A stretch of 64,000 nucleotides of DNA from Prevotella sp. Its GTDB lineage: Bacteria > Bacteroidota > Bacteroidia > Bacteroidales > Bacteroidaceae. The stretch is from NCBI GenBank assembly GCA_017474515.1, contig JAFVHN010000053.1, positions 62,001-126,000 on the forward strand, read 5' to 3'. Below, one piece after another: positions 10,052-62,396 of the stretch. Position numbers and translations under genes: made by a program. The notes below the pieces were generated by a model, which worked only from the letters and a program-made list of their open reading frames with translations, ran no database searches and was not told the origin of the DNA. Numbering within the stretch: the first letter of the stretch is position 1; each line of letters opens with the position of its first letter.

Positions 10052-11563
10052 ATGATTATGGACCATTCGTCTTGGCTGAAAAAAAACGCCCGCTACCTCT
10101 TCTCCTTCGTGCTGCTTGCCCTGTTCATTGCCTGTAGCCACCAGCCCGAGAATGTTTCAATGTGCGACCGCACGCCTGACATCTACCCCGACTATGTGGG
10201 CGTGACCATTCCCGTGGACATTGCGCCGCTGAACTTCTCGATGGCCGACGACAGCGTGAGCCACATTGACGTCACCGTGGAAGGCAACAAGGGCGGCCGC
10301 TTGCATGCCAACGGAACATTTGCCGACTTCGACATCAAGGAATGGCACGGGCTGATCCGCCAAAACCGTGGCGGAAAACTGACCGTTACCGTCTGTGCCG
10401 AGAAAAACGGCGAATGGACTCAATACCGCCCGTTTGACATTTTCGTCAGTACCGACAGTCTGGGCGAATGGGGCATCACCTACCGCCGCATTCCACCTTC
10501 ATATAACATCTACAGTCAGATGGGCCTTTACCAGCGCAATCTCAGCAACTTCGATGAGGAAGCCATGCTTGTCAACACCCAAGCGCCGGGAATGTGCATC
10601 AACTGCCACACCGCCAACCGAACCAATCCCGACCAGTTCGTGTTTCATGTGCGCGGCGGTCATGGTGCCACCGTCATCGGTCGCAACGGAGACATTGAAC
10701 TGCTCAAGGCACGCAACGACAGCCTCGGCGGGTCGATGGTCTATCCGAGCTGGCATCCCGGCGGACGGTTTTGCGCTTTTTCCACCAACAAGACGTCGCA
10801 GATGTTCCACACGGCCAACCCCAAACGCATCGAAGTGTACGACTCGTCGTCCGACGTTTTCGTTTATGACGCCGAGACGCACACCATTCTCAGCGACACA
10901 CTCATCATGAAAAAACTATGGGCCGAGAACACGCCGGCCTTCTCCCACGACGGCAAATGGCTCTATTTCATCACCGCCCGAAGGCAGGTATATCCCGACG
11001 ATTACGACAAAGAACGCTACAGCCTTTGCCGCGTGGCATTCGACGAGCAAACAGGAAAGTTAGGGCACGACGTTGACACGCTCATCCAAGCCGACACCTT
11101 GAAGAGCATCACCTGGCCCCGCCCCTCCTACGACGGGCGGTTCCTCATGTACACACAGGCCAACTACGGCTATTTCTCTGTTTGGCATCCTGAAAGCGAC
11201 CTTTGGCTGCTCGACCTGCAGACCATGGAAAGCCGCCGCATGGACGAAGTGAACAGCCCACGGGCCGAAAGCCTTCACAGCTGGAGCGCCAATAGCCGCT
11301 GGTTCCTGTTCACCAGCCGTCGCGACGATGGCCTCTACACTCGCATCTACTTTTCCACCGTCAATGCCGACGGAAAAGCCACCAAGCCTTTCATGCTTCC
11401 GCAACGCAACCCCAAAAAGTATTATCAGCAACTGCTTTATTCCTACAACACGCCCGATTTCACGTCAAAACCCGTAAAATATGATGCCCGCACAATGGGC
11501 AACCGCATTGAAAGCGACCAGCGCACGGGCACGAAAATGAAGGCCGGAGCCACCGGCGAATAA
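10052..11563 (+). CDS. Lipoprotein with TolB-like propeller repeats and a CxxCH motif
   Basis: This 503-residue exported protein has a lipobox (LLALFIACS, Cys28). An N-terminal beta-rich part is followed by the motif CINCHT (Cys182, Cys185, His186), a covalent c-type haem attachment signature. Downstream come PD40/TolB-type blades: SMVYPSWHPGGRFCAFSTNK, ENTPAFSHDGKWLYFITAR, SITWPRPSYDGRFLMYTQ and LHSWSANSRWFLFTSRR. It follows a membrane protein by 8 bp in the same transcript. Such proteins are sometimes labelled cytochrome c biogenesis in Bacteroidetes, but I know of no demonstrated role. The single haem motif next to a propeller suggests a periplasmic redox or sensing function; this is inference. 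An alternative ATG two codons later is equally possible. Confidence 0.85.
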   Translation: MIMDHSSWLKKNARYLFSFVLLALFIACSHQPENVSMCDRTPDIYPDYVGVTIPVDIAPLNFSMADDSVSHIDVTVEGNKGGRLHANGTFADFDIKEWHGLIRQNRGGKLTVTVCAEKNGEWTQYRPFDIFVSTDSLGEWGITYRRIPPSYNIYSQMGLYQRNLSNFDEEAMLVNTQAPGMCINCHTANRTNPDQFVFHVRGGHGATVIGRNGDIELLKARNDSLGGSMVYPSWHPGGRFCAFSTNKTSQMFHTANPKRIEVYDSSSDVFVYDAETHTILSDTLIMKKLWAENTPAFSHDGKWLYFITARRQVYPDDYDKERYSLCRVAFDEQTGKLGHDVDTLIQADTLKSITWPRPSYDGRFLMYTQANYGYFSVWHPESDLWLLDLQTMESRRMDEVNSPRAESLHSWSANSRWFLFTSRRDDGLYTRIYFSTVNADGKATKPFMLPQRNPKKYYQQLLYSYNTPDFTSKPVKYDARTMGNRIESDQRTGTKMKAGATGE

Positions 11564-17658: not shown

Positions 17659-17852
17659 TTTTCGGAAATGAAAAAGAACAGGTGGTCAGAATTACGGGGG
17701 TGGAAAAGCAATTTTTCAAGGTCAGAGGATGCGGTTTTGGTGAACGGATGGGGAAAGGGAGGAAAACGGCAGACGGGGGATTTGTTTTGTTGGCAACGCA
17801 AAAAACGGGACGGGGGAAGTGAAAAAAACGGCGCTTTTCGGGTATTAAAAAA

Positions 17853-18049
17853 CCGTAAAAAATCTTGACAAAAATGACCAAAAACAGGGCAATTTGTAAC
17901 TCGTTGGTTTTCAAGGGGTTCAAAAATATGCTAAGTTTGACCGCAATTTTCTCGTCGAGATCTTCAAGATCTCTCCTCTCAAACTTGCATATTTCTCCCC
18001 GAGATTTGCGGTCAAGCCCCTCCCCGATTATGAAAAATCTTGACAAAAA
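17853..18049 (-). repeat. Dispersed palindromic element, copy 1
   Basis: The element is about 200 bp. Its ends carry direct repeats (AAAAATCTTGACAAAA on the plus strand at 17858 and 18033). Inside are TTTGACCGCAA at 17936 and its inverted partner TTGCGGTCAA at 18006, with GAGATCTTCAAGATCTC between them. Two further copies lie at 29973 and 43262. The strand given is the one whose frame stays open and matches the peptide seen in the other copies. Confidence 0.8.
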
Positions 18050-18203
18050 CAATCTTCAAATCACCCTTGCCACCCCAAACATCTTGAACGGCTTGGACGG
18101 CATCATTCAGGCCGTCGGTGGCGACCGTTTCGCGACACTTGTGAGGGTCGCAGTTGATATAGGTGAAAAAAAAAGATAATTTGAAAATTTTTCTCACAAA
18201 TTA

Positions 18204-29766: not shown

Positions 29767-29972
29767 GGGTTGAAACATTTTTTAAACCATGCGCATGATG
29801 TTTGTACGGCAAATGGCATCCGTATGAACGGCGAGGGCGGCCTTTTGTCATCTTCATTTTACAACCGACGCCCTTTTTCCGGATGAAAAAGCGGCCGCGT
29901 TTTGGCGGCGAAAAACTCCCCCCGAAGATAGAAAAACGGCAGCGTTTTGACGGCAAAAAAGGTGCCCGAAAA

Positions 29973-30179
29973 CGGTAAAAAATATTGACAAAAGCGGCGT
30001 TTTGAGGCCATTTTTGTAACTTATTGATAATCAGACGGTTTAAAACAAGCTGGATTTTGACCGCAAATTTCGGGGGGAAATCTTCAAGATTTCTCCTCTC
30101 AATCTTCAAGATCTCTCCCAGAGATTTGCGGTCAAACCTTTTTCCGGCACAAAATTTCCATGAAAAATCTTTACAAAAT
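29973..30179 (-). repeat. Dispersed palindromic element, copy 2
   Basis: End repeats are AAAAAATATTGACAAAA (29977) and GAAAAATCTTTACAAAA (30162). The inner inverted repeat is TTTTGACCGCAAATTTC (30055) with GAGATTTGCGGTCAAA (30121). Two copies of ATCTTCAAGAT lie between the arms. Orientation matches copy 1. Confidence 0.8.
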
Positions 30180-30296
30180 GATGCCGAATAAATCGAAAAA
30201 AAGAAGCCGGGAACAAGAGGGCGTTCACATGTCCGGAAAAGAGGGGCATTGAAAATTTTTATGCCCCCATGCGCACCAACTTTGAAGAAAAATGCG

Positions 30297-43001: not shown

Positions 43002-43261
43002 ACATTGGGCTGAAAAAGCGAACCAAGGCGGGCACTTTTCCTTTTTCGGCAGAACAGGAGCCGATACTGTAGTCAAAAAAACATTCGCCTGCTTCCTATG
43101 TAAGGCCGCAAAGTCCGCCCGCCGCACATTCCTGTGATTTCGGACATACATGAAGTATGTCCCTACGAGCGGAAAACCGCGCATGGAAGAATCACCTGAA
43201 CAGAAGGCCGGTGAAAAACTGCCGCCGACTTTATCATTTATCATTTAGCGAAGCGCCCCGG

Positions 43262-43468
43262 TTTTGTCAAGATTTTTCACAAAACTTTTCTTCCCCCTCA
43301 GAGTTTGACCGCAAATTTCAAGGAGAGAATTGGCAAATCTCTCCCCTCAAAATGGCAAATCTCTCCCCGAAATTTGCCGCCAAACTCCGCAGGTTTTGTA
43401 AACTGCTGAATTTCAGCAGTTTATGTTTTTCGTTGAAAATTCCCGCTTTTGTCAAGATTTTTCATAAA
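43262..43468 (+). repeat. Dispersed palindromic element, copy 3 (opposite orientation)
   Basis: End repeats TTTTGTCAAGATTTTTCA occur at 43262 and 43447. The inverted arms are GTTTGACCGCAAATTTC (43303) and GAAATTTGCCGCCAAAC (43369). Two AATGGCAAATCTCTCCC-like units lie between. An extra AACTGCTGAA/TTTCAGCAGTT hairpin is at 43401-43421. On the plus strand the frame stays open and matches the minus-strand frames of copies 1 and 2. Confidence 0.8.
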
Positions 43469-43533
43469 AAAGTCCCCAGGTTGTTATCCACTCTTTTGGG
43501 TGTTGAGAACAGCTTTTTTTTTACCATTATTTG

Positions 43534-61748: not shown

Positions 61749-62396
61749 ATGAAAAACATCATCAAAACCATTGCCCTTCTGCTGGCCTGTGTGCCGGCCC
61801 TGACCTTCACGTCGTGCCTGAACGACGACGAAACCGATTATGAAGACTACACCCCCGAACAGAAAGCCGCCTACATGAAACAGATGGACGGCTCCTATTC
61901 AGGCATCCTGCGCTTCTACAACGACACGCTGAAGACAACGACGAAAGTCGATTCCATCAACGCCACGGCTTTCTTCCGATCGGCCGACTCCACCGTCGTC
62001 ATTTCGGGCATTTCACCAAGGGTGTTCTCAAAGTTAATTAAAGGCGACCGCTATGAAACACTGCGCCAAGCCCTTGACCAGCAGCCCATGCAATCGCTCA
62101 CGATGAAGGCCATCTTCTACGACGTCGCAAAAAGCGGAGCCGTCTTCTACGGGGCATACCCCATGGAGAAAACCTTCGACCTCTACTACGACGACGCAAC
62201 CCACAAGGTGTCGTTCTATTTCTATAACTACCTGAACAACAACGGTCTTTGGTATAACAAGGAAACAGAACTGGCCGCCTACATCACCGAAATATGGATT
62301 GACAACTCACGCACGAAGACTTTCAGCATCTCTCCCACCTACGTGGACAGCGACTGCGTGCTGAGTTTCTACGGCAAGTACGTCGGGGCCTTCTGA
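61749..62396 (+). CDS. DUF4840-like lipoprotein
   Basis: This 215-residue lipoprotein has the lipobox ALTFTSCLNDDE (Cys24) followed by an acidic stretch. The mature part is beta-rich: YSGILRFYNDTLKTTTKVDS, SADSTVVISGISPRVFSKLI, and a Tyr-rich VSFYFYNYLNNNGLWYN. It resembles DUF4840, a Bacteroidetes family of exported lipoproteins of unknown function; that name is from memory. It is a single gene with a strong terminator. Confidence 0.75.
   Translation: MKNIIKTIALLLACVPALTFTSCLNDDETDYEDYTPEQKAAYMKQMDGSYSGILRFYNDTLKTTTKVDSINATAFFRSADSTVVISGISPRVFSKLIKGDRYETLRQALDQQPMQSLTMKAIFYDVAKSGAVFYGAYPMEKTFDLYYDDATHKVSFYFYNYLNNNGLWYNKETELAAYITEIWIDNSRTKTFSISPTYVDSDCVLSFYGKYVGAF

Follow-up and report, generated by a model that had tools for sequence, protein, structure and literature searches.

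What is the ~200 bp element that recurs three times within one 64,000 bp stretch of Prevotella sp. DNA, each time between divergently transcribed genes? The stretch (hereafter the window; positions 62,001 to 126,000 of contig JAFVHN010000053.1, assembly GCA_017474515.1) belongs to an assembly of 118 contigs and 3.51 Mb, and its initial annotation had described the copies as a possible non-autonomous mobile element, REP-like structure or transcribed RNA. In the whole genome the element is present in about 180-230 copies, which are evenly spaced, constrained in sequence and built around an array of four units, and arrays with other unit sequences, here called dialects, were detected in most of the sampled genomes of the genus. 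In our leading interpretation, held tentatively and at slightly less than even confidence, the element could be a cis-acting nucleoprotein site that recurs chromosome-wide and co-evolves with a DNA-binding protein.

The layout of the whole element is rigid over ~200-230 bp. In its own direction, a weak GTGGRTAAC-like box is followed by an A/T-rich end repeat (direct repeat 1, DR1), ~20 bp, an IHF-like motif, four units, ~30 bp, and a second A/T-rich end repeat (DR2). The motif reads TTTTGTAAC-N3-TTGATWATCA-N4-TTNNAAAA, and its right half resembles the IHF consensus, WATCARNNNNTTR. The centres of the four units are ~22-24 bp apart; the outer two constitute the inverted repeat described initially, with arms like TTTGACCGCAAAT/ATTTGCGGTCAAA, from which copies 1 and 3 differ by one or two changes, and the inner two are AGATCTTCAAGAT-like copies. 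The AGATCTTGAAGAT-like central unit of the initial annotation was real, but it is one of two types, as copy 3 carries the TTTGCCA type.

All three copies were found where they had been placed, including their end repeats and the reversal of the third. Copy 1 (17844..18054, forward strand; profile hit C84:79844-80054, 176.7 bits), a variant with 175-bp spacing, has DR1 at 17857..17874, the motif with its IHF-like core at 17892..17926, where the last base departs from the consensus, the outer-arm units 1 and 4 at 17936..17949 and 18003..18016, units 2 and 3 at 17956..17974 and 17978..17996, and DR2 at 18032..18049, where conservation ends sharply. Copy 2 (29946..30188, forward strand; C84:91946-92188, 221.4 bits) carries DR1 at 29977..29994, the IHF-like motif at 30012..30046, units 1 to 4 at 30056..30069, 30076..30094, 30098..30116 and 30123..30136, and DR2 at 30162..30179. 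Copy 3 (43243..43498, reverse strand; C84:105243-105498, 170.7 bits) has DR1 at 43446..43463, the IHF-like motif at 43394..43428, units 1 and 4 at 43371..43384 and 43304..43317, the TTTGCCA-type units 2 and 3 at 43346..43364 and 43324..43342, and DR2 at 43261..43278.

Across 86 anchored copies, conservation set in weakly ~30 bp to the left of DR1 and stopped sharply after DR2. Clear ends were present in 83 of 90 copies, and there the distance from DR1 to DR2 was 185 (54 copies), 186 (21), 184 (4), 175 (2) or 174 (2) bp, the ~10-bp step equalling one helical turn. As the length varies by a single base or by about a full turn, the element may work as a protein-DNA complex dependent on helical phase. 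The end repeats are direct, and no inverted ends were found, the best inverted 12-mer being equalled by 39 of 200 shuffles.

Although three copies had been reported, the genome holds at least ~180. The 13-base core of the arm, with at most one mismatch, matched 364 times (186+178) against once (0+1) for the reversed-pattern control, and the 14-base core of the end repeat, at the same tolerance, 353 times (174+179) against three (1+2), which is more than chance; the element is a real repeat family, and its architecture is fixed. With two arms per copy, the 364 arm matches correspond to ~182 copies, and a profile search of 711 kb in eight contigs, which returned 48 hits (47 at ≥60 bits), extrapolates to ~230. 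Only three of the 48 hits were partial or degenerate (18, 66 and 80 bits); the 18-bit partial hit was counted in the hit and placement totals and left out of the spacing and unit-type tests. Outside the hits, the eight contigs contained no arm, one unit and, with three mismatches allowed, two end-repeat matches, one of which sits ≤35 bp from a contig end.

In the contigs examined, elements lie between predicted genes, the largest overlap with a gene being 46 bp where genes were called by simple open reading frame scores. That elements always separate divergent genes, as first claimed, is true of the window (3/3) but not of the eight contigs, where 20 of the 48 elements were flanked by divergent, 20 by tandem and 8 by convergent genes. 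Gaps of ≥200 bp in the same contigs numbered 41, 72 and 23, respectively, and the split of the elements is approximately as gap lengths predict. Orientation was random: it followed local GC skew for 23 of 47 elements and matched the neighbouring element in 16 of 39 cases. Spacing, in contrast to random placement, was even: the 39 intervals in the eight contigs had a coefficient of variation (CV) of 0.49 and a minimum of 4.87 kb, whereas placement in random intergenic slots gave mean CVs of 0.84 (slots weighted equally) and 0.76 (by length), and 0 of 2000 placements were as even under either null.

Constraint and relatedness were analysed in 83 of the 90 copies after alignment. When the set was split into halves, the ~78 of 203 columns picked as conserved deviated by 2.4% in the held-out half, and ~26 free columns by 57%. 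The nearest-neighbour test, separate from this split, picked its columns by information content, and low deviation there is partly by construction. At the free columns no copy was closer to its nearest neighbour than the 99.9% null allows, with medians of 0.556 against 0.519 in the null, which leaves room for slight relatedness among copies; with all columns included, each copy was 70-89% identical to its closest neighbour (median 81%). Drift at free columns together with retention of the fixed ones suggests that each resident copy is under purifying selection. Among the 83 copies no clear sign of recent copying was found; one close pair on contig C89, 90% identical over 202 bp and 16 kb apart, its members not both in the 83-copy set, indicates that copying may still occur.

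The pairing potential of the units was uneven. Compensating changes in the long pairing of the outer units, sought as the initial annotation had proposed, gave no covariation (0.793 against 0.797 in shuffles). The inner units retained their dyads by paired changes, and for each of them 0 of 500 shuffles were as good (54 copies); the dyad of the IHF-like motif modestly exceeded its shuffles (pairing 0/500, double changes 15/500). Both inner units of an element were nearly always of the same type: among 47 elements, 28 were TT, 12 GG and 2 TG, 2 were ambiguous, and in 3 the units were not located. This dyad pattern fits symmetric binding of a dimer better than a large hairpin.

The proposed search for further copies was thus productive in the genome itself, but no full element was found in relatives. 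It was in none of 39 relatives (up to 19 candidates per genome; short matches in 3), in none of 397 other genomes of the genus (2 candidates scored per genome; matches of 31-41 bp in 3), and in none of the other 392 of 393 genomes of the order (2 candidates scored per genome). Two exact patterns were searched in the genome_contigs collection: the double-arm pattern had 0 matches, and the sole match obtained there, L275 (Bacillota), lay inside a predicted reading frame and was taken as chance. A plasmid search with one of the copies gave no match. Carriage by viruses or plasmids was considered and rejected: a 16-mer of the arm gave 10 single matches to viral contigs, the second arm being absent from the 90 bases shown, and the element's own unit and the G742 array (from one of the genomes below) had 0 matches in viral contigs. 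The unit of another genome, G476, matched three viral contigs, and matches to the IHF-like motif there were too common for interpretation.

By de novo repeat detection in 100-140 kb per genome, 9 of 11 other genomes of the genus (G476, G742, G453, G010, G555, G775, G012, G436 and G016) were found to carry dispersed arrays built of different units, so that with the genome under study 10 of 12 carried arrays. The genomes were not chosen at random: G476, G453, G742, G555 and G775 came from a tryptophanase list and had long contigs, G016, G010, G416 and G350 were picked for long contigs, and G012 and G436 originated from a motif listing. Lag 22 was the best or tied-best autocorrelation in the studied genome and all nine others; in the long hits of G476, G742 and G016 the 110-bp window was chosen by its lag-22 score, which favours 22, and the remaining seven sets involved no such choice. 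The element's IHF-like motif model beat AT-matched controls at the arrays of seven of the nine genomes (p 7e-8 to 0.003). Moreover, when the whole element model was run on 1.0 Mb of the nine genomes, its 12 best matches, weak singly (E 0.001-0.12), all fell inside independently found arrays or no more than 100 bp from them, which is evidence that the element and the other-dialect arrays may share common descent.

The arrays of other genomes were also evenly spaced. Pooled over the eight genomes with ≥4 arrays, 55 intervals had a CV of 0.41 against 0.86, and 0 of 5000 uniform placements were as even; one contiguous block per genome was used, arrays <400 bp apart were merged, and G436 (3 arrays) was dropped. 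No such array family was seen in 100 kb of G188 (same family, outside the genus), in 100 kb of G031 (same order) or in the 42-kb sample of G025. A terminus-depletion scan of G742 gave 50 matches, but the reversed control 7.

Other repeats were observed in the same samples. A second dispersed family in G476 has TTTACGTGTAAA-type units (L308:1594-1702, L309:6028-6149, L312:18579-18673), and G555 (L341, L342, L344, L345) carries a separate dispersed repeat of ~50-125 bp, TTTAACCCAAATCGGTCATTAGCCC-like at one end, in several copies per 100 kb. Tandem repeats of ~65-70 bp with TATCTTTGCATAAGATAGGCTGCGCTCGG occur in several copies in G010 (L331, L333, L334), and CRISPR-like arrays with a repeat like ATTTCAATTCCATATAGGTACGATTAAAAC were seen in G416 (L340:5011-5575 and 10338-10822), one of the two genus genomes whose samples lacked 22-bp arrays. 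In two species (G019 and G006; L062 and L064, ~1500) an IHF-like motif without an array lies upstream of apparently the same small lipoprotein gene.

One dialect can be connected with a described repeat. PINSR, as published, is a 188-bp intergenic repeat of P. intermedia that lacks terminal inverted repeats, numbers 177 and 184 copies in two strains, is lineage-limited and has no assigned function; it is also found downstream of tnaA, and about three quarters of its regions are common to the two complete P. intermedia strains (PMC4755523). In G476 an array is likewise located ~235 bp downstream of tnaA, and its family is present at 13 places in a P. nigrescens replicon, on which grounds the G476 family is almost certainly PINSR. 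The initial annotation knew of no named family with this layout; through a genome that almost certainly carries PINSR, the element and PINSR appear on our analysis to belong to the same architectural class. Like PINSR as described, the element has ~180 intergenic copies, a length of ~190 bp and no terminal inverted repeats, and it shares with the G476 family the IHF-like motif, the 22-bp array and a right end resembling the ...TCTTTACAAAA of that family. In sequence the resemblance is limited to motif and right end: the G476 unit is AAAAGCGGCTSTTTTG as against GAAATCTTCAAGATTTC, and no stretch of G476 was among the 12 best matches of the element model. Neither a unit array nor an IHF-like motif is mentioned in the parts of PMC4755523 consulted, and nor are dialects or an even spacing.

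In P. nigrescens, de novo detection showed a derived dialect, AAAAGAGCCTGTTTTG. With both models combined, and arrays merged within 150-250 bp, its 26 arrays in 200 kb had a CV of 0.58 against 0.95 (7/4000), and the 23 arrays in 120 kb of a second G476 contig 0.55 against 0.94 (10/4000). Four pairs of arrays were compared between the two. In pairs 1 and 3, beside the same aligned block, the IHF-like motif aligns (in pair 3 also the left end) and the units differ; pair 2 aligned poorly. In pair 4, a 97%-identical block holds the P. nigrescens dialect in both genomes. A ~1.7-kb block of this type (L391:45891-47547 in P. nigrescens, L397:8481-10137 in G476), 97% identical amid neighbours of mostly 74-91%, apparently represents recent exchange. 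A G476-only array between collinear blocks had no P. nigrescens counterpart, yet no clean empty site was found there. Several synteny breakpoints between the two (L388-L391 against L396-L401) adjoin arrays, in line with a remark on rearrangements between PINSRs in PMC4755523.

The preferred interpretation, a chromosome-wide nucleoprotein site, can be outlined as follows. A protein of IHF/HU type would bend the DNA at the motif, and a dimeric sequence-specific protein would occupy the units, two turns apart, in a cooperative manner along a single face of the helix, with the end repeats closing the complex. One such complex per ~13 kb may organise the chromosome, in a role of the domain-boundary, segregation or nucleoid-occlusion type, and the dialects could arise by co-evolution of the sites with the binding protein.

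Several observations weigh against this interpretation. The cognate protein was not found, and Y1 transposases do not track the arrays. Dyad compensation is absent from the outer units, where 336 and 482 of 500 shuffles were as good, and the existence of two subtypes of inner unit means that the compensating changes are not independent events. No array family was present in 100 kb of G416 or G350 (2 of the 11 genomes), which shows that arrays are not indispensable, and the IHF-like motif was weak in G775 (p 0.019) and lacking in G453 (p 0.29). Evenness also varied: the first G476 sample had a CV of 0.69, hits of the PINSR (G476) model alone were uneven in P. nigrescens (0.92 against 0.88 in the null), and on contig C7 of the studied genome two motif matches are only 3.0 kb apart, so that the 4.9-kb minimum is valid for the eight contigs only. 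Array positions were mostly unshared with distant species (2/15 against a background of 5/149), indicating that sites are gained and lost, which is compatible with mobility too.

Mobility is the basis of the main rival, which we consider rather unlikely: a non-autonomous element copied in trans by a transposition system with target immunity, whose unit-bound transposase would keep new insertions kilobases away and so generate the even spacing, the dialects following changes in the transposase. Precedents are MuA and TnsB, which each recognise several sites of ~22 bp, and the target immunity of Mu and Tn7. The restriction of the full element to one of the genus genomes searched, the missing double-arm matches in genome_contigs, the turnover of positions between distant species, the minimum spacing of 4.9 kb in the eight contigs and the close C89 pair are all in favour of such an element, and this proposal of the initial annotation is retained as a rival. 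It is opposed by the lack of inverted ends, by the internal position of the units, which are not at both ends, by the absence of target duplication in 83 copies, by the scarcity of partial copies and solo ends across 711 kb and by the lack of any excess of close copies at the free columns; matches of boundary k-mers stayed within the shuffled range for k=4-9, and for k=3 the highest count (50, null maximum 49) fell at conserved flanks. The terminal inverted repeats and target-site duplications of miniature inverted-repeat transposable elements (MITEs) are accordingly both wanting, and the different dialects at shared P. nigrescens/G476 positions also speak against a mobile element of this kind. 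A search for the Mu-transposase family gave no match anywhere, but its controls were equally silent, so this search tests nothing.

The remaining alternatives are less probable. It is improbable that the element marks DNA for processing or uptake, the dialect of each species being matched to the enzyme that reads it. Known marks of this kind are Chi, KOPS and DNA uptake sequences, and the ~200 copies and the dialects, differing even at shared positions, would suit one; the element's orientation is unlike that of polar marks, agreeing consistently with neither GC skew nor the neighbouring element, and to our knowledge the element is far longer and rarer than any known mark. We consider a structured RNA or terminator-like element very improbable: small hairpins could form from the inner units, whose dyads are kept by compensation, but the long stem lacks covariation, the geometry and length are rigid, convergent gaps are not preferred (8/48), and the window had 0 Rfam matches at gathering thresholds, so that the transcribed RNA proposed at first is not upheld. 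Least credible is mobilisation by a RAYT (Y1) transposase, with the element as a REP/BIME-type repeat. The high copy number of intergenic, species-specific palindromes would be in favour, but Y1_Tnp (PF01797) occurred in only 5 of 12 genomes, was absent from 5 of the 10 that bear arrays (G476, G742, G555, G775 and G012), and had one weak match in the studied genome; the initial REP-like suggestion is not supported, as the transposase link fails in these genomes.

Among known systems, Noc, SlmA and MatP each involve a protein that organises the chromosome and has numerous palindromic sites scattered along it, every site being single and short, whereas the element combines a 22-bp array with an IHF-like motif and end repeats. 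The RIB/RIP elements of E. coli are interspersed, palindromic, built on REP sequences and equipped with an IHF site; the element is interspersed and palindromic too and carries an IHF-like motif, but it has the 22-bp array and no RAYT link. Membership in such an IHF-bound class is a prediction: the sequence motif is present in the element's own copies and at the arrays of seven of nine other genomes, and an IHF/HU-type protein would bind there. BrickBuilt of Porphyromonas gingivalis, according to PMC4596501, is intergenic, consists of a leader, tandem 23-nt units and a tail, has a limited host range and is classed as a MITE whose inverted-repeat ends are small, occurring 19 times in one genome. 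The element is likewise intergenic, unit-built and of limited host range, but it has four units with a period of 22, near-fixed length, direct instead of inverted end repeats, ~200 copies and even spacing, differences in layout that set it apart from BrickBuilt as described.

In titles and the beginnings of abstracts in the open-licence PMC literature, where PINSR and BrickBuilt were the relevant works, no evenly spaced or dialect-varying Prevotella arrays were found. It is conceivable, although we hold this with somewhat less assurance than the nucleoprotein site itself, that the element represents a new class: evenly spaced arrays of about four 22-bp units beside an IHF-type bend, in most sampled genomes of one genus, with a unit sequence uniform within a genome and species-specific even at shared positions. 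The arrays would then act as a domain-boundary or centromere-type system that co-evolves, or is engaged in an arms race, with the protein binding to it. More boldly, they could be regarded as a chromosome-wide grid of target-immunity beacons that shield genes from a transposon. Constraint at ~200 sites per genome points to an important protein, for which the units could serve as bait sequence, and even spacing together with dialect change would make questions of chromosome domains or target immunity directly testable. PINSR, reported in 2015 with no assigned function, would then become one dialect of a class with interpretable anatomy and regular spacing.
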